This document shows positions 331 through 9,644 of a DNA stretch of 47,019 nt, piece by piece. A program made the translations under genes and the position numbers. The number at the start of each line of letters is the position of its first letter. Position 1 is the stretch's first letter. The DNA is from Nanobdellati archaeon (GTDB taxonomy: Archaea > EX4484-52 > WAPT01), in NCBI GenBank assembly GCA_027038505.1, contig JALVWC010000014.1, forward strand, positions 1-47,019, read 5' to 3'. The notes under the pieces were generated by a model. That model did not search any database, was not told the DNA's origin, and saw only the letters and a list, made by a program, of their open reading frames with translations.

Positions 331-352
331 ACCCCTTCATTTCATCTGGATG
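329..352 (-). promoter_or_regulatory. ORB-like origin recognition box A
   Basis: Reverse complement CATCCAGATGAAATGAAGGGGTCT matches the archaeal ORB pattern (dyad half + GAAAnnAAGGGG G-string). Inverted relative to the box at 416-440. Confidence 0.7.
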
Positions 353-415: not shown

Positions 416-440
416 TCTCCATATGAACTAAAGGGGTCTC
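416..440 (+). promoter_or_regulatory. ORB-like origin recognition box B
   Basis: TCTCCATATGAACTAAAGGGGTCTC, same consensus as the boxes at 329, 8311 and 8394. Confidence 0.7.
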
Positions 441-524
441 TTTGTGGTAGTGTGCGATTGGTTTAAATTTTTTAATGACCTCACTCCAAATACACCGAAA
501 CTTCAAGTAATTCGTGTGGTTCAT

Positions 525-1763
525 ATGGAGAATAAACAACTCACACACTTCACAACACCAACACAACGAACTCTTGAAAATTTATTTGAAAGTTTTATGA
601 ATAAAGAATCTATTTTTAGAAATAAAGATGCGCTTTCTATTAAATACTCACCTGAAAAAATCTACCATAGAGACGAACAGATCAATACTTTAAGTAGAAT
701 TCTTGCACCTATACTTAGAAATGAGAAACCATCTAATGTTTTTATCTACGGTTTAACAGGTACGGGTAAAACTCTCGTAACGACTTACGTTACCACCAAT
801 CTTGAAAACTTCACAATAAAACACAACATTCCTTTAAAAGTACTTTTCGTTAATTGTAAAATGAAGAAAGTTGCCGATACTGAATACAGACTTTTGGCTT
901 ATCTTTCTTCTTTACTTGGAGAGGGTGTGCCTGCAACAGGGCTTCCGACCGATGAAGTTTACAGACGGTTTTATTCAGCACTGGAAAATATTGGCGGGAA
1001 TGTTGTTATCGTGCTTGATGAGATTGATGCCCTTGTGAAAAAAGTGGGTGATGAACTTCTTTATAACTTTACGAGGATGTGCGAAACGATGAAAGATGTT
1101 AATCTCAGCCTTATTGGCATCTCGAACGATCTATCCTTTATGGAGTATTTAGATGCCAGAGTCAAATCCTCCCTTTCTGAAGAGGAGATAATATTTCCAC
1201 CCTACAACTACGAACAGTTAAAGGATATCCTTTTTGACAGAGCCATGGTGGCGTTCAACCCGGGTAAGATTGATGAGGCAGCCATAACTAAATGTGCAGC
1301 CCTTGCAGCGCAGGAGCATGGTGATGCGAGGAGGGCACTCGACCTTTTGAGAATAGCCGGAGAAATAGCGGAGAGAAATGGTGATGAGAGGGTTGAGGAG
1401 AAACACATAGACTTAGCGGAGGAGAAACTCGATCTGGATAGGATGAGTGAAGCAGCAAGGGTGCTGCCGAAACACTCCAAGATAGTGCTTTATACTGTGT
1501 TGTGTTTACTCCGAAATAGGGACAAAGTCCTTACAGGAGACATACAAAAATACTATGAGCATGTCTGCGAGCAACTCGGCGTGAGACCTCTAACTCAAAG
1601 AAGGATATCTGATATTATCGCTGAGCTGGATATGCAGGGCTTGATAAATGCGAGCGTCATTTCAAAAGGTAGGTATGGTAGGACGAGGGAGATAACACTC
1701 TCCCTCTCAAAAGCGACACACGATAAAATACTCTTACAACTCAAACAAGAATTAGATTTATAA
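525..1763 (+). CDS. cdc6: Orc1/Cdc6 family replication initiator
   Basis: AAA+ Walker A GLTGTGKT, Walker B VIVLDEIDAL, C-terminal winged helix. The ORF track starts at GTG 444, but ATG 525 (MENKQLTHF) is a more likely start, leaving 331-524 as the origin/promoter region. Confidence 0.9.
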   Translation: MENKQLTHFTTPTQRTLENLFESFMNKESIFRNKDALSIKYSPEKIYHRDEQINTLSRILAPILRNEKPSNVFIYGLTGTGKTLVTTYVTTNLENFTIKHNIPLKVLFVNCKMKKVADTEYRLLAYLSSLLGEGVPATGLPTDEVYRRFYSALENIGGNVVIVLDEIDALVKKVGDELLYNFTRMCETMKDVNLSLIGISNDLSFMEYLDARVKSSLSEEEIIFPPYNYEQLKDILFDRAMVAFNPGKIDEAAITKCAALAAQEHGDARRALDLLRIAGEIAERNGDERVEEKHIDLAEEKLDLDRMSEAARVLPKHSKIVLYTVLCLLRNRDKVLTGDIQKYYEHVCEQLGVRPLTQRRISDIIAELDMQGLINASVISKGRYGRTREITLSLSKATHDKILLQLKQELDL

Positions 1764-1765
1764 TC

Positions 1766-3313
1766 TTGTCACAAAACCACTTAATTATGGACGCTGTCCA
1801 AAAACTCATTCAGGATCTTATGGAACGCGGAATTCTTATCGAGCCGTCGGCTTTCGATTTCATAAAACAACACAACATACCGCCCGATAAGATTTATTCT
1901 TTAAAAATCGAGGAGGGCGTACTCACAAGAAAACACCTCGAACCGCTTATCGGTGATGTGGGTTGTGAGGAGATCACATCTGAAAATAACGATACAAGAA
2001 ACACATCCAACTTAATTACATTTGTTGAGATCGTAAGGAAAAAGAAAAGAACAATCGCAGAGGAGTGTGATTTTTCGGTGGAGGTTGAGAACAAGGAGAC
2101 TAATAATGGAGAAATTTCCCAAAAAGGTGCGGAAATTTTCGTCGAAATGTTTAAAGATAGGTACGAAAGGCTGCGCGATTTACTCCTACACAGAGCCGAA
2201 CTCAGAAACGCGATATCTATTGGTAGGCTCAAGGATGCTAGAAACCTCGAAGGAGAAATTACGGTAATAGGGCTTGTCAGAACAAAATCAAAAACCAAAT
2301 CCGGGAATTACATACTCGAACTGGAGGACCCAACTGGCGTGGTGAGTGTTTTCGTCAGGGAGGAAGCTTCAAAACTGGCCGGATATGTGGTGGAGGATGA
2401 GGTTATAGGTGTTAGAGGCACTTTCAACGGAAATTTCCTGTACGCTTCAAATATAGTGTTTCCTGACATACCGATCCCAACAGGAGTAAATAAGGTGGAA
2501 GATCCTGTTGCGGCGGTCTTCATTTCCGATCTGCATTACGGGAGCAAGCAGTTTATGGTGGATATTGAAAGAAGGTTTCTTGGGTGGATAAATGACAAAA
2601 ATGATGAGCTCGCATCTAAGGTTAAATACATCTTCATAGCGGGAGACCTCGTTGATGGGATAGGGATTTATCCAGAGCAGGAGGCGGACCTTCTCATCAA
2701 AGACATATATAAGCAGTACGAGCTCCTAGAAAGGTTCATTGAACGGATTCCTGAACACATAGCGGTGGTGTTGTGTCCCGGAAACCACGACGCTGTTAGA
2801 AGTGCGGAACCACAACCACCCATCCCTAAAGACTTTGTCCCGAACCTTTATTCAATGGATAACGTTTTTCTTGCGACAAATCCTGCTTACGTGAGAATAC
2901 ACGCGATGGATGGGGAGGTAGGTGTTCTGGTTCTGATGTACCACGGTTATAGCTTCACCTCCATGATTGATGCCATGACGCCCATAAGGAAACACGGAAC
3001 CACACACCCACAATATGTTATGAGGGAGATATTGAAAAAAAGACACTTAGCTCCTACATATGGGTGTGTGATTCAGGCACCATATCCTAAAGATCAGCTC
3101 GTGATAGATAAAGTGCCGGACATATTCCACACAGGAGATTTGCACTCTCACGGTGTCGATAACTATAAGGGAGTAACTCTCATAAGCTCGTCAACTTTTC
3201 AGGGCCAGACTGCCTTCATGGATAGGGTCGGACACGTGGCGAATCCGGGTAAAGTGACGGTTGTGGAACTTAATACAAGAAACGTCAAGGTGCTCGACTT
3301 TTGCGGAGAATAA
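1766..3313 (+). CDS. polB: DNA polymerase D small subunit DP1
   Basis: OB fold followed by calcineurin-like phosphoesterase motifs (SDLHYGS, AGDLVDG, PGNHDAVR, HTGDLHSHG). TTG start at 1766; ATG at 1787 is an alternative. Confidence 0.92.
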   Translation: MSQNHLIMDAVQKLIQDLMERGILIEPSAFDFIKQHNIPPDKIYSLKIEEGVLTRKHLEPLIGDVGCEEITSENNDTRNTSNLITFVEIVRKKKRTIAEECDFSVEVENKETNNGEISQKGAEIFVEMFKDRYERLRDLLLHRAELRNAISIGRLKDARNLEGEITVIGLVRTKSKTKSGNYILELEDPTGVVSVFVREEASKLAGYVVEDEVIGVRGTFNGNFLYASNIVFPDIPIPTGVNKVEDPVAAVFISDLHYGSKQFMVDIERRFLGWINDKNDELASKVKYIFIAGDLVDGIGIYPEQEADLLIKDIYKQYELLERFIERIPEHIAVVLCPGNHDAVRSAEPQPPIPKDFVPNLYSMDNVFLATNPAYVRIHAMDGEVGVLVLMYHGYSFTSMIDAMTPIRKHGTTHPQYVMREILKKRHLAPTYGCVIQAPYPKDQLVIDKVPDIFHTGDLHSHGVDNYKGVTLISSSTFQGQTAFMDRVGHVANPGKVTVVELNTRNVKVLDFCGE

Positions 3314-3668: not shown

Positions 3669-3683
3669 GTATAATATATTAGG

Positions 3684-3972
3684 GTCAACCTTCTCCTTAC
3701 TAAAAAGAAATGAAAAATCGGGCTCGGACGGTGGGGGTTGCGTGCCTTCTTGCCTCCTCACCCCACCCTCCGATTAATTCCGTATTTTCCGGGAAGTTGA
3801 CAGGAGAAGCACATGACCCCGGTCGTCCACACCCCATCACACCAGAAGACAGATGGAATGCGGAGTCATCCCGGGATTATTCTGTGGAGCATCCCGGAAT
3901 AATGTACATAAATTTGGCTACCCACTTACAGAACTTCCATGGATTTAGATGAGTGTGGGTAGCCGCCATTTT
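3684..3972 (+). ncRNA. candidate structured non-coding RNA, family not assigned
   Basis: GC-rich block in AT-rich intergenic DNA. Helices: GTCAACCTTC 3684-3693/GAAGTTGAC 3793-3801 (one bulge); CGGACGGTGGGG 3725-3736/CCCCACCCTCCG 3761-3772; ATGACCCCG 3813-3821/CGGAGTCAT 3861-3869; CCATC 3834-3838/GATGG 3852-3856; GGCTACCCAC 3916-3925/GTGGGTAGCC 3955-3964. A T-run follows. Confidence 0.6.
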
Positions 3973-4053
3973 TAACAACCTCGTCGCAGAATATTAGTTC
4001 GTTTTTCTTTATAAATTTTATCCAAAAACTTTTTAAATACGTTCGGCAACCGC

Positions 4054-4713: not shown

Positions 4714-4768
4714 ACGCTCTATATGGGACTGAAAGTAAATAAAAGTTTTGATATACGGATATGTTGTC

Positions 4769-7700
4769 ATGAAGCTCCGCGAGTACTTCGAAATGATCAG
4801 AAAGGAGTGTGAGAGAGCTTACGAAATAGCCAATAGGGCTAGGGCTAAGGGGTTCGATCCCGAGGATAGAGTGGCAATACCGGTAGCTGAAGACCTTGCC
4901 GCGAGGGTGGAAGGTCTTGTGTCGATAATATTTCCTCAATTATTCGATTCTGGGTTGAAGGAGAGGATAAGGGAACTGGAGAAAGAATACCATAAAAATG
5001 ACGAGAGAGTGGCTTTTGTAGCGGGAAAAGAAGTGGCTCTTGGCAAATTCTGCAACTTTTATTCAAAAGAGGAAGCTGCCGAAGCCGGTGTGAGGGTTGC
5101 AGTTGCATACTTAACGCTTGGTGTTGTTACAGCCCCTCTTGAAGGCATATCCAAGGTCAAGATCAAGAAAAATAAAGACGGAACGGAATACCTCGCTATT
5201 TACTATGCCGGTCCGATCAGAAGTGCCGGCGGTACAGCATCAGCCATGTCTGTTGTTGCCGCCGATTACATAAGAAGAGCTTTGGGACTGGATCGCTACA
5301 AACCGGAAGAAGTTGAGATACTCCGTTACTACACCGAAGTGGAGGACTACTACAATCGTGTTGCCAAGAAGCAGTACCATCCGACCAAGGAGGAGATAGA
5401 ATCCATAATAAAACATGTGCCTGTAGAGATTACGGGAGAGCCGACAGAGAAGCTGGAGGTGAGCAACTATAAGGATCTGGAGAGAGTTGAGACTAATAGA
5501 ATAAGAGGGGGTATGTGTCTGGTTCTCCTCGACGGCCTTCCCCTAAAGGCGGAGAAATTGCTGAAGAAGATAAATAAGTACGGCCGTGAATTCGGCCTGG
5601 AGGACTGGCTCTGGCTGGAGGAGTTCGTTCAGCTGAAGCACAGGATTCACGCTGCAAAGGAAATCGATGAAGATTCCAACGTTAAGTACGTGCCGAGCAC
5701 CAAATACCTTGAAAAGATCGTGGCAGGCAGGCCGATAATTGCGCACCCGGCAAGAAAGGGGGGTTTCAGGCTCAGATATGGCAGGGCAAGAACATGCGGT
5801 ATTGCCTCAACGGCAATACATCCTGCAACAGCTCACCTGATTGACTTTCTCGCAATAGGAACGCAGATGGCAACGGAAGCTCCGGGGAAAGCAACAGTGG
5901 TTACTGTTTGCGACTCAATAGAAGGCCCGGTGGTTCTCCTGAAAAACGGAGACATAGTTGAGCTCAAAAGTAGGAAGGATGTCGAAAAGTACAGAAAAGA
6001 TATTGTCAAAATATTAAGTCTAGGGGACATACTTGTGCCGTTTGGCGAATTCCTGTCCAACAATCATGTTCTACTTCCTGCAGCTTACTGCGAGGAGTGG
6101 TGGGCCCTGGAAGTTAAGAAAGCTTTGGAAGAGGGCAAGAAGTGCAGCATTAACTTAACAAAGTATGTGGAAAAACCATATCCTGCTCCATCCCTGGAGG
6201 AGGCAATAAAGATCTCGCAGGAACTGGAAGTTCCACTCCATCCTTATTACAACTTCTTCTGGCATGATATAACCAAAGAACAGTTGAAGCTGCTGATAAA
6301 CCACTTCTCCATGAGCAAGATCGAAGGAAACGAGTTAACCGTGAAGTTCGACAGGAAAGTTCACGAGGTTTTGCAGGAGCTGTGTGCACCGTGTGAAGTT
6401 AGGGATGAAAAAATAATACTGAAGGGGAAAAGTATTGCAATTTATTTCTGCCTTGGCAGTCCTGATGAAGGTAATGTGAAGGAATTTACGGAAATTGTGG
6501 ACTCCTGCACCTCCGTTATGGAAGCGCTACAGAAACTCAGTGGCATAAAAATAATGGAGAAAGGCCCCACCAGAATAGGGACGAAGATGGGGAGGCCAGA
6601 GAAGTCCGATAAGAGAATGATGAAGGGCAGACCGCAGATTCTTTTCCCCTGTGGACAGGAAGGAGGAAGGATGAGGAACCTAATGGAGGCCTACTCGAAA
6701 GGATACGTGGAAGCGGAGTTCCCCCTGTACAAGTGTGAGAAATGTAATGATTTCGTCTTCTACCCCACCTGTCCGTTTTGCGGAAGCAGAACAACTCGTT
6801 ACTACCAGTGCGTAAAGTGTAACAGGATAGTGAAGGAAGAGAAGCACTGCGGAACGGACGCGAGACCTTATGCTAAAATGAATGTGAAGATGAGGAAGTT
6901 TTTGGATGCCGCTCTCAAAAACTTGGGGATGAGCCCTCCCACACTGTTTAAAGGTGTGCGCGGTGTTTCGGGAGCGGAGAGAACCATGGAGAGGTTGGAA
7001 AAGGGACTGATACGTGTTGCACATGGACTGTACGTGAACAAGGACGGCACGATAAGGTACGATAGCACCGATGTCCCTCTAACTCACTTCAAACCGAAAG
7101 AAATTGGCATAAGTGTTGAGAAGTTAAAAGAGCTTGGTTACACCCATGATATTTACGGCAACGAGCTAAGGCACGAGGATCAGGTTCTTGAGCTGATGCC
7201 TCAGGACATAATAATCTCTGATAACGATGGGAGTTCTGCAGCGGAATACTTATTGAAGGTGGCGCAGTTCGTGGATGAACTTCTCGTGAGGTTTTACGGG
7301 CTTGAGCCATACTACAACGCCAAAACAAAAGAGGATCTTGTGGGAAAGCTGGTGATAGGGCTTGCTCCACACACCTCAGCTGGAATAGTTGGCAGGATAA
7401 TCGGATTCACAAAAGCAAGGGTGTGCTTTGCTCATCCCTTCTGGCATGCAGCGAAGAGAAGGAACTGTGACGGAGATGAGGATAGCATAATGCTTCTTAT
7501 GGACGCTCTGCTAAACTTCTCCAGAAAGTATTTGCCAGCTACACGCGGAGCTTCAACCATGGACGCACCCCTCGTTTTAACTGTACAGTTAAATCCGGAG
7601 GAAATAGATGACGAGGCATGGAACGTGGATATAGATGACCACTACTCCCTCGAGTTTTATCACGCCACCCTTCGTTATGAGATGCCCACCGAGGTTGAAG

Positions 7701-8224
7701 CTAAACCCAAAGTGGTGGAGGATGTGCTTGCACAGGAAGAGATCCACATCAAGTTCACTCACGATACCTCAGACATACACGATGCGCCATTCAAAACAAG
7801 GTACGTATTGTTGAAAAAAATGGAGGAAAAGATAGAGGAGCAGTTGAGGGTTGCAGAACTCATAAGGGCATGTGATGAGAATAAAGTTGCTGAGGCCGTT
7901 ATTGTCAACCACTTCATGCGCGATATAAAAGGTAACCTGCGAACATTCTCCAAGCAATCGTTCAGGTGTGTGGATTGCAACGAGAAATACAGACGTATAC
8001 CTCTGAGCGGGAAGTGTGAGAAGTGCGGTGGGAAACTTCTGCTCACTGTGTCCGAAGGCACCATAAGGAAATACGTCGAACCAACCAAAATGCTTCTGGA
8101 AAGGTATAAGGTGTCCAGCTACGTTATTCAAGTATTTCGCTTGCTTGAGAGAGACATAGATGATTTGTTTGGAAAAAAGGGAAGACAGATTAATCTTTTC
8201 AGTCTTGCATCAAATAAAGCATAA
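4769..8224 (+). CDS. polC: DNA polymerase D large subunit DP2
   Basis: Characteristic DP2 motifs: GPIRSAGGTASAMSV, ARTCGIASTAIHPATAHL, FWHAAKRRNCDGDEDSIMLLMDALLNFSRKYLPATRGASTMDAPLVLT, Zn-finger cysteines. No intein. Start at MKLREYFEMIRKECERAYEIA (codon 8 of the listed ORF). Confidence 0.95.
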   Translation: MKLREYFEMIRKECERAYEIANRARAKGFDPEDRVAIPVAEDLAARVEGLVSIIFPQLFDSGLKERIRELEKEYHKNDERVAFVAGKEVALGKFCNFYSKEEAAEAGVRVAVAYLTLGVVTAPLEGISKVKIKKNKDGTEYLAIYYAGPIRSAGGTASAMSVVAADYIRRALGLDRYKPEEVEILRYYTEVEDYYNRVAKKQYHPTKEEIESIIKHVPVEITGEPTEKLEVSNYKDLERVETNRIRGGMCLVLLDGLPLKAEKLLKKINKYGREFGLEDWLWLEEFVQLKHRIHAAKEIDEDSNVKYVPSTKYLEKIVAGRPIIAHPARKGGFRLRYGRARTCGIASTAIHPATAHLIDFLAIGTQMATEAPGKATVVTVCDSIEGPVVLLKNGDIVELKSRKDVEKYRKDIVKILSLGDILVPFGEFLSNNHVLLPAAYCEEWWALEVKKALEEGKKCSINLTKYVEKPYPAPSLEEAIKISQELEVPLHPYYNFFWHDITKEQLKLLINHFSMSKIEGNELTVKFDRKVHEVLQELCAPCEVRDEKIILKGKSIAIYFCLGSPDEGNVKEFTEIVDSCTSVMEALQKLSGIKIMEKGPTRIGTKMGRPEKSDKRMMKGRPQILFPCGQEGGRMRNLMEAYSKGYVEAEFPLYKCEKCNDFVFYPTCPFCGSRTTRYYQCVKCNRIVKEEKHCGTDARPYAKMNVKMRKFLDAALKNLGMSPPTLFKGVRGVSGAERTMERLEKGLIRVAHGLYVNKDGTIRYDSTDVPLTHFKPKEIGISVEKLKELGYTHDIYGNELRHEDQVLELMPQDIIISDNDGSSAAEYLLKVAQFVDELLVRFYGLEPYYNAKTKEDLVGKLVIGLAPHTSAGIVGRIIGFTKARVCFAHPFWHAAKRRNCDGDEDSIMLLMDALLNFSRKYLPATRGASTMDAPLVLTVQLNPEEIDDEAWNVDIDDHYSLEFYHATLRYEMPTEVEAKPKVVEDVLAQEEIHIKFTHDTSDIHDAPFKTRYVLLKKMEEKIEEQLRVAELIRACDENKVAEAVIVNHFMRDIKGNLRTFSKQSFRCVDCNEKYRRIPLSGKCEKCGGKLLLTVSEGTIRKYVEPTKMLLERYKVSSYVIQVFRLLERDIDDLFGKKGRQINLFSLASNKA

Positions 8225-8310
8225 ATTTCATATGCTTTTTTGGAGAATAATGTAATTTCATGTTATTTTTTCTATATCATATGAATTTAACCTTTTTTAA
8301 TGTTACGTCA

Positions 8311-8334
8311 TTTTCCACATGAAATGAAGGGGGG
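8311..8334 (+). promoter_or_regulatory. ORB-like origin recognition box C
   Basis: TTTTCCACATGAAATGAAGGGGGG, matches the same consensus as 329-352 and 416-440. Confidence 0.7.
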
Positions 8335-8393
8335 TTAAGTTCATGTACTTTTTTCACGCCACTCACCAAAATTTTTATAAAATTTATGGTATG

Positions 8394-8419
8394 TTTTCCA
8401 CATGAAACAAAGGGGTGTG
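8394..8419 (+). promoter_or_regulatory. ORB-like origin recognition box D
   Basis: TTTTCCACATGAAACAAAGGGGTGTG, direct repeat of box C 83 bp away; AT-rich aaaatttttataaaatttat between them. Confidence 0.72.
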
Positions 8420-8428
8420 TTAACTTCA

Positions 8429-9644
8429 TCATACCAAATAGTTCAGAATTACCGGAAAGATGAGCGCAGCCATCAGTAAACTCTTCTTCACCGCCATGCG
8501 GTAGGCAAGAATTCCGAGCAAACATGAAGTTAACATGACAAACACCCCCCAAGAATGATGCTTGGATGAAAGTCAAAATCATCAGAAAAAGCAATATTGC
8601 GATGCCAAGCTTTCCGTAGTTGATCTCTGTAAGGTCTGAAGCGAACCTTCTGCCAACTACAATTGTTATTACTGTTGCGAGTGATGCCGATACAACCGTG
8701 CACAATATTAGTAGGGGTATTGAGCTCTTCCCCATCCCGAGACTCTGCAGAGCTATCGCCACGCCAGATCTCGGCTTTGAAATTATGAAAATGGACATAA
8801 CTGCGATGAACGCATGCACGGTGTTCGCGCTTCCAAGCATGGCTATGAAGCTCCTCTCGCTCATCCTTCTTTTCAACTGAGCGACAATTATGGAACTCTG
8901 CGTGGGTGTTATGCCGGGTAGCAGTCCGGAAAGAATACCGGCAACGCTGCCGAGCAGGCTGTTACTCGTGATATCTCTCCAATTAATTTTGAAATTCAGC
9001 TTTTGTCTCTTTATGGATGGGGAAGTATATATGCTCATGATTATTGTGCTCAATCCGAACAAACCCGTGAGCATAGATACCAGCGCATCACCACTCGTCA
9101 TTGGTAAAGACAGGACAACTATGCCGAGAAAGCAACTGAGCAGAAGTATAATCGCTGCGCTTACCTTTTTCCTTTCACCCAACAGAAGAATGAACATTAC
9201 CCCGATGAGAATGTATGGTATAAACGACTTTATGGTGTTGTAAACTTCATTCCCAAACGAAAGGAGGAGTGGAAGGAACAACACAGCAAATAAGGATCCA
9301 AACAGTCCGCTCAGCGCTGAGTAAACCAAAGCAACGTAACCGTAGCCGCGCAGCGTTAGTCTGTGTCCGGGCAGCACAGACAGGCAGGTTGACTCGTCAG
9401 GCGCCCCGACAAAAATGGATGGGATAAAGTCAAGAAAAGTGTGAGTTATTGCCGCACTCATTATGAACACTATGGCTGGGGTGAGCAACAACGGATTTGC
9501 GGAAAGTAAGCTGCTAATAAGGCTAACAAACAGAAAAGCAGCGGTGTTAACGTGAAGACCGGGAATCAAACCCGTGAGCGTGCCAACAAATACTCCAAGA
9601 AGCATTGCAAGGAGACAGAGCACAATCGTGCTGACTAAAGGCAT
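8429..9644 (-). CDS. archaeal TctA/DUF112-family membrane permease-like protein with apparent frameshift
   Basis: Multi-TM protein with GLIPGLHVNTAAF and GLLPGITPTQSS. The listed frame (8277..9644) becomes non-membrane-like after the C6 run at 8545-8550. Removing one base restores SFLGVFVMLTSCLLGILAYRMAVKKSLLMAALIFPVILNYLV*, ending at 8429. Confidence 0.75.

Follow-up and report, generated by a model that had tools for sequence, protein, structure and literature searches.

Two near-identical ORBs in direct orientation lie just past the 3′ end of polC, the gene for the large subunit of DNA polymerase D, and to this array we would give about an even chance of being an auxiliary array for Orc1/Cdc6 binding, distinct from the origin yet linked to it, and most likely serving as an initiator sink or brake; the origin itself is likely the inverted ORB pair around an AT-rich stretch upstream of cdc6 (332-436). 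The sites themselves, their rarity, conservation, orientation, and position, and the skew pattern of relatives are observed; Orc1 binding, the relative affinities, and the sink function are inferred. The window, that is, the whole stretch of DNA analysed (47,019 nucleotides), is one entire 47-kb contig (G000:C14) of an assembly of 880,593 bp in 34 contigs that is 94% complete.

The cdc6-Side Pair and the Neighboring Genes

The gene order in the window is cdc6/orc1, DP1, DP2/polC, a convergent tctA-like gene, and nac, and the cdc6-polD genes are bracketed by two ORB clusters (332-436 and 8314-8415), as an earlier note on this DNA had described. The features on the cdc6 side are as follows.

332-350, minus strand: cdc6-side ORB, left half of the inverted pair (consensus and profile match)
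351-417: stretch separating the two inverted ORBs, a candidate DNA-unwinding element for the predicted oriC (AT 0.84)
418-436, plus strand: cdc6-side ORB, right half of the inverted pair (consensus and profile match)
444-1763, plus strand: cdc6/orc1, Orc1-1 type (Pfam Cdc6_C and Cdc6_lid; likely start ATG 525)
1766-3313, plus strand: DP1, DNA polymerase D small subunit (Pfam DNA_pol_E_B and Metallophos)
4748-8224, plus strand: DP2 (polC), DNA polymerase D large subunit (Pfam PolC_DP2 domains)

The genome has an Orc1-1-type initiator gene in cdc6 (444-1763), the closest solved chains to its product being 2qby_A (7e-108) and 2v1u_A (1e-99); its start is probably ATG 525 rather than GTG 444, since alignments to relatives with solved structures begin near residue 28 of the shorter form, and those to most homologues at residues 35-40 of the longer one. 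A second, divergent Orc1/Cdc6 paralogue (30% identity) is encoded at G000:C13:43548-44411, on a contig with no ORB match. The relatives of polC include a sequence from a 'DPANN group archaeon' (95% identity) and one from an archaeal MAG (81%). Between DP1 and DP2, a GC-rich segment (3682-3975) is a candidate non-coding RNA gene, with a TATA-like sequence upstream and a terminal hairpin followed by T-rich DNA; it folds better than shuffled sequences (z -2.6, 1/200), is conserved in part in G001, and gave no credible match to Rfam.

Direct ORBs in the Gap between polC and tctA

The convergent polC and tctA genes are separated by a short gap in which the array is housed.

8225-8428: gap between polC and tctA, 204 bp (polC stop 8224, tctA stop 8429-8431)
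8311-8344, plus strand: array ORB 1 with its 3′ extension, GGTTAAGTTCAT (core 8314-8332; consensus and profile match)
8369-8387: AT-rich, TATA-like core amid the direct ORBs (84% identity to G001, 16/19)
8394-8428, plus strand: array ORB 2 with its 3′ extension, TGTGTTAACTTCA (core 8397-8415; consensus and profile match)
8429-9644, minus strand: tctA-like membrane protein gene, frameshifted in the assembly (Pfam TctA 9.6e-50; intact in G002 and G001)

The two boxes, TTTTCCACATGAAATGAAGGGGGG (8311-8334) and TTTTCCACATGAAACAAAGGGGTGTG (8394-8419), are both on the plus strand with a spacing of 83 bp, and AT-rich aaaatttttataaaatttat separates them (spacer AT 0.72); re-reading of the sequence bore out the coordinates, sequences, and orientation that the earlier note had given, together with its claim of a consensus common to the array and the cdc6 boxes, of which there are four exact sites. 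The array boxes agree with the Orc1-1-type ORB consensus TTCCA...GAAA..AAGGGG with G-string, and Orc1 would be predicted to bind them, given this agreement and the Orc1-1-type protein encoded by cdc6.

The earlier note had also held that the boxes are masked by a run-on ORF (8277-9644) and become non-coding once a frameshift is corrected, and relatives agree with this: tctA is open in G002 and G001, its stop aligns with window positions 8429-8431, and a length difference of one nucleotide in a G run (about 8545-8551), which may be an assembly error or a real mutation, shifts the window's tctA into the run-on frame, so that the array boxes are non-coding. Coding constraint from that ORF is ruled out, the ORF being a frameshift artefact. 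In the alignment of the gap to the congener G001, the extended boxes are identical at 64/69 positions (93%) and the remaining spacer at 65/120 (54%; Fisher p = 1.3e-8), with a single substitution in the core and extension of array ORB 1. A 3′ extension like TTAACTTCAT is common to the array boxes of families f1 and f2 (window 8333-8344 and 8416-8428; L101 9492; L140 11102) and is missing from the cdc6-side boxes; it could bind another factor or reflect common descent.

Searched genome-wide, the motif proved rare rather than frequent. With the consensus of the earlier note, itself read from these four sites, four matches at up to two mismatches are found in the window against 0.04 expected from shuffles, and the whole assembly of 880,593 bp holds four exact sites, all on the window contig, and two further matches with two mismatches on another contig; because the pattern derives from the same sites, the relatives provide the stronger independent support. 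An order-wide ORB profile of 27 positions, derived from 32 ORBs that were taken from the order and from its neighbours, returned the same four sites from the assembly (E 9.2e-6 to 2.6e-4; next match E = 1.6), and scored the array sites (25.5 and 25.2 bits) above the cdc6-side sites (21.9 and 21.0), a ranking that is partly circular, with the window's own sites among the profile input, and in which score is a stand-in for affinity. Chance occurrence of the array boxes is ruled out by the shuffles, the assembly counts, and the profile E-values; four strong sites in an 880-kb assembly are not chance. No exact match to the ORB was found in viral contigs.

Conservation across the Order and Beyond

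When the 3′ flank of polC was compared in related genomes, as the earlier note had suggested, the boxes were found to be conserved: direct arrays of two to four ORBs lie past polC or at the 3′ end of tctA in five of the order's seven families, and in 19 of its 34 genomes, many of them fragmented.

f1: G000, G001, G002
f3: G004, G010, G015, G019, G022, G026, G028
f4: G005
f6: G007, G012, G021, G025, G031; G017 at tctA
f7: G013; G008 with a single weak box

The order polC, array, convergent tctA, and nac is repeated in f1, f4, and f6, in some genomes with inserted genes, and in f3 a metallo-beta-lactamase-fold gene replaces tctA. No array was found 3′ of polC in G003, G006, G011, G016, G018, and G020, in some of which the visible flank is short. 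Families f2 and f5 have no array at polC; in the f2 genomes G003, G009, and G014, strong boxes lie between a P-type ATPase gene and a divergent kinase gene, forming in G003 and G014 a direct pair 37-38 bp apart, and in f5 the ORB sites are scattered. Outside the order, G166 carries a direct pair in the same orientation about 1.6 kb past DP2, in G243 a strong box is flanked by DNA polymerase B and tctA, and no array was found past DP2 in G044 and G049. The arrangement is common in the order, not unique to it.

Several further features were observed in these genomes. At L189 (G243:C65:15000-27000), the strong ORB, which has a weaker outward partner and lies 3.6 kb from cdc6, sits where the DNA polymerase B and tctA genes converge. 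At L186 (G229:C1:582000-594000), three minus-strand ORBs at about 585.5-585.8 kb and three plus-strand ORBs at 591.5-591.7 kb lie 222 kb from the main cdc6. In G007, a LAGLIDADG-type gene sits between polC and the ORB array (L126:1248-1916), and in G006, G008, G016, G018, and G040 the matches of DP2 split near residues 904-919 inside a single long, uninterrupted frame, the pattern that an intein would give.

Which Cluster Is the Origin

The position of the origin was approached through the GC skew at third codon positions per gene strand, fitted with a single switch point against a null of gene-order shuffles; such skew is a long-term average, taken here on single MAG contigs with uncurated long ORFs as genes, and the shuffles ignore gene clustering, so that it bears on the origin only indirectly. 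In G004, the switch falls exactly at the cdc6 ORBs, with a gain of 79.5 against 43.4 at the array and a maximum of 51.8 in 300 shuffles, and the skew on plus-strand genes is equal on either side of the array (0.44 and 0.45). In G008, with 48 kb between the loci, the switch is at cdc6 (41.2-41.8 versus 10.6 at the array). The strongest signal, that of G010 (478.9), places the switch between the clusters, and by likelihood nearer to cdc6 (463.7) than to the array (441.2). No significant switch was obtained for G000, G001, and G002, which are the genus of the window, or for G005, G013:C11, and G243, the last included to test for an origin on the tctA side, and the weak switch of G014 lies away from its array.

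The box geometry also differs between the loci. The cdc6-side pair points outward around DNA of AT 0.72-0.89 in 10 of 12 genomes, whereas in G017 and G027 the two boxes lie close together and face inward; every array is direct, with AT mostly 0.54-0.78.

A bipartite or extended origin, in which Orc1 bound at the array would loop to the cdc6 pair or add MCM loading and so promote initiation, is possible but rather unlikely. It would suit the distance between the array and the cdc6 pair, which in f1, f3, and f4 stays at about 10 kb or less despite the inversion of cdc6 relative to polD in f3, as well as the best switch of G010 between the clusters and the AT-rich or TATA-like DNA 5′ of many array boxes, as for a half-origin. 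However, the tctA-side box of G008 lies far from cdc6 and the ORBs of f2 and f5 lie elsewhere, which indicates that close linkage is not required, and in G004 the switch is at cdc6 alone.

That the array is a second, perhaps conditional, replication origin is improbable. Archaeal origins are conventionally marked by ORBs (PMC4010727), those of the array are strong and lie beside AT-rich DNA, and dormant origins are known in haloarchaea (PMC4595724). Nevertheless, no genome tested has a skew switch at the array, and in G004, G008, and G010 a cut there is worse than one at cdc6 by 22-36 log-likelihood units. The array also departs from the layout of the oriC1 type, both boxes being on the plus strand without inverted ORBs around an AT-rich unwinding element, and is not directly adjacent to the initiator gene, lying 8 kb from the cdc6-side pair. 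A standard origin completed by a weak inverted partner box was considered and rejected: no such box was found in the region, and no other site in the window scores at least 8.

Other uses of the array, or its being a relic, are unlikely even when taken jointly. A non-replicative use of Orc1, whether to insulate convergent genes from each other, to terminate their transcription, or to regulate an unseen short transcript, has a low probability: in most f1, f3, f4, f6, and f7 genomes the genes on either side of the array converge, and TATA-like sequence lies 5′ of several boxes, but the strong direct pair of f2 sits between divergent genes and no Rfam family was detected in the array region. A functionless remnant of a former origin or of a duplication or rearrangement, which the differing location between families and the one weak box retained by G008 might suggest, is highly improbable in view of how strongly the boxes are constrained within the genus and of the consensus boxes in five families.

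A Probable Auxiliary Initiator-Binding Array

Among the three functions that the earlier note had put forward, a second origin fits poorly with a switch at or near cdc6 in relatives and with the absence of an inverted layout, the best fit is with titration or some other auxiliary role that involves Orc1 binding, and a bipartite origin is possible. In the proposed sink, Orc1 produced from cdc6 would fill both loci; forks leaving oriC would copy the array soon after firing, so that high-affinity sinks would be doubled, free Orc1 would fall, and re-initiation would be discouraged, along the lines suggested for the oriC2D of Haloarcula hispanica and the datA of Escherichia coli. This role is favoured by the presence of only four strong sites genome-wide, two of them in the array and the array pair scoring best, by the conservation of the boxes beside a diverging spacer, by the recurrence of direct arrays in five families, by the skew and box geometry described above, and by the nature of the array as a cluster of initiator boxes outside yet linked to the origin; given the convergent flanking genes, there is no obvious promoter for it to regulate. 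Against a sink, two boxes are few for titration, compared with 11 in the haloarchaeal oriC2D, f2 and f5 are without an array at polC, and in the genus of the window the skew gives no guidance.

More broadly, though this is less likely than not, a conserved two-locus initiation system may be shared by the DPANN archaea of the order and by some outside it, consisting of a weaker inverted cdc6 pair as the origin and a stronger direct array beyond polD that would control re-initiation or form the second half of a bipartite origin. If so, origin-linked control of the initiator would extend well beyond haloarchaea. The prevention of re-initiation is poorly known in archaea, and a literature search returned no paper devoted to origins of replication in these uncultured lineages. 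An array that is compact, conserved, and clearly placed relative to the origin offers a concrete site for testing initiator titration or two-part origins. It is also a warning that the motif alone is insufficient to call an ORB cluster an origin.

Comparison with Known Systems

The oriC1 of Sulfolobus has two inverted ORBs around an unwinding element (ORB3-DUE-ORB2), both of which are needed (PMC12141716), and the window resembles it in ORB consensus, Orc1-1-type initiator, and nearby AT-rich DNA (PMC12141716, PMC4010727); the cdc6-side pair is the match to oriC1, whereas the array is direct. The location beside cdc6 and other replication genes recalls the oriC of Pyrococcus (PMC4010727, PMC12141716). 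With datA of Escherichia coli, a proposed initiator sink outside the origin that is duplicated after firing (cited in PMC3936714 and PMC4010727), the likeness is one of analogy only, the initiator and boxes being unrelated. In Haloarcula hispanica, oriC2D is without origin activity alone, can be deleted only if oriC2 is absent, and lowers the copy number of an oriC2 plasmid; it has 11 ORBs, although a two-ORB construct still gave an intermediate effect (PMC3936714). Its function is based on deletion and plasmid tests, whereas that of the array is predicted, and its ORBs directly follow cdc6E, whereas the two to four direct ORBs considered here lie past polC, about 8 kb away in the window, in an unrelated lineage and linked to an Orc1-1-type gene. 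Like oriC2D (PMC3936714), the array forms an ORB cluster of its own that is tied to an ori-cdc6 unit and placed off the origin.
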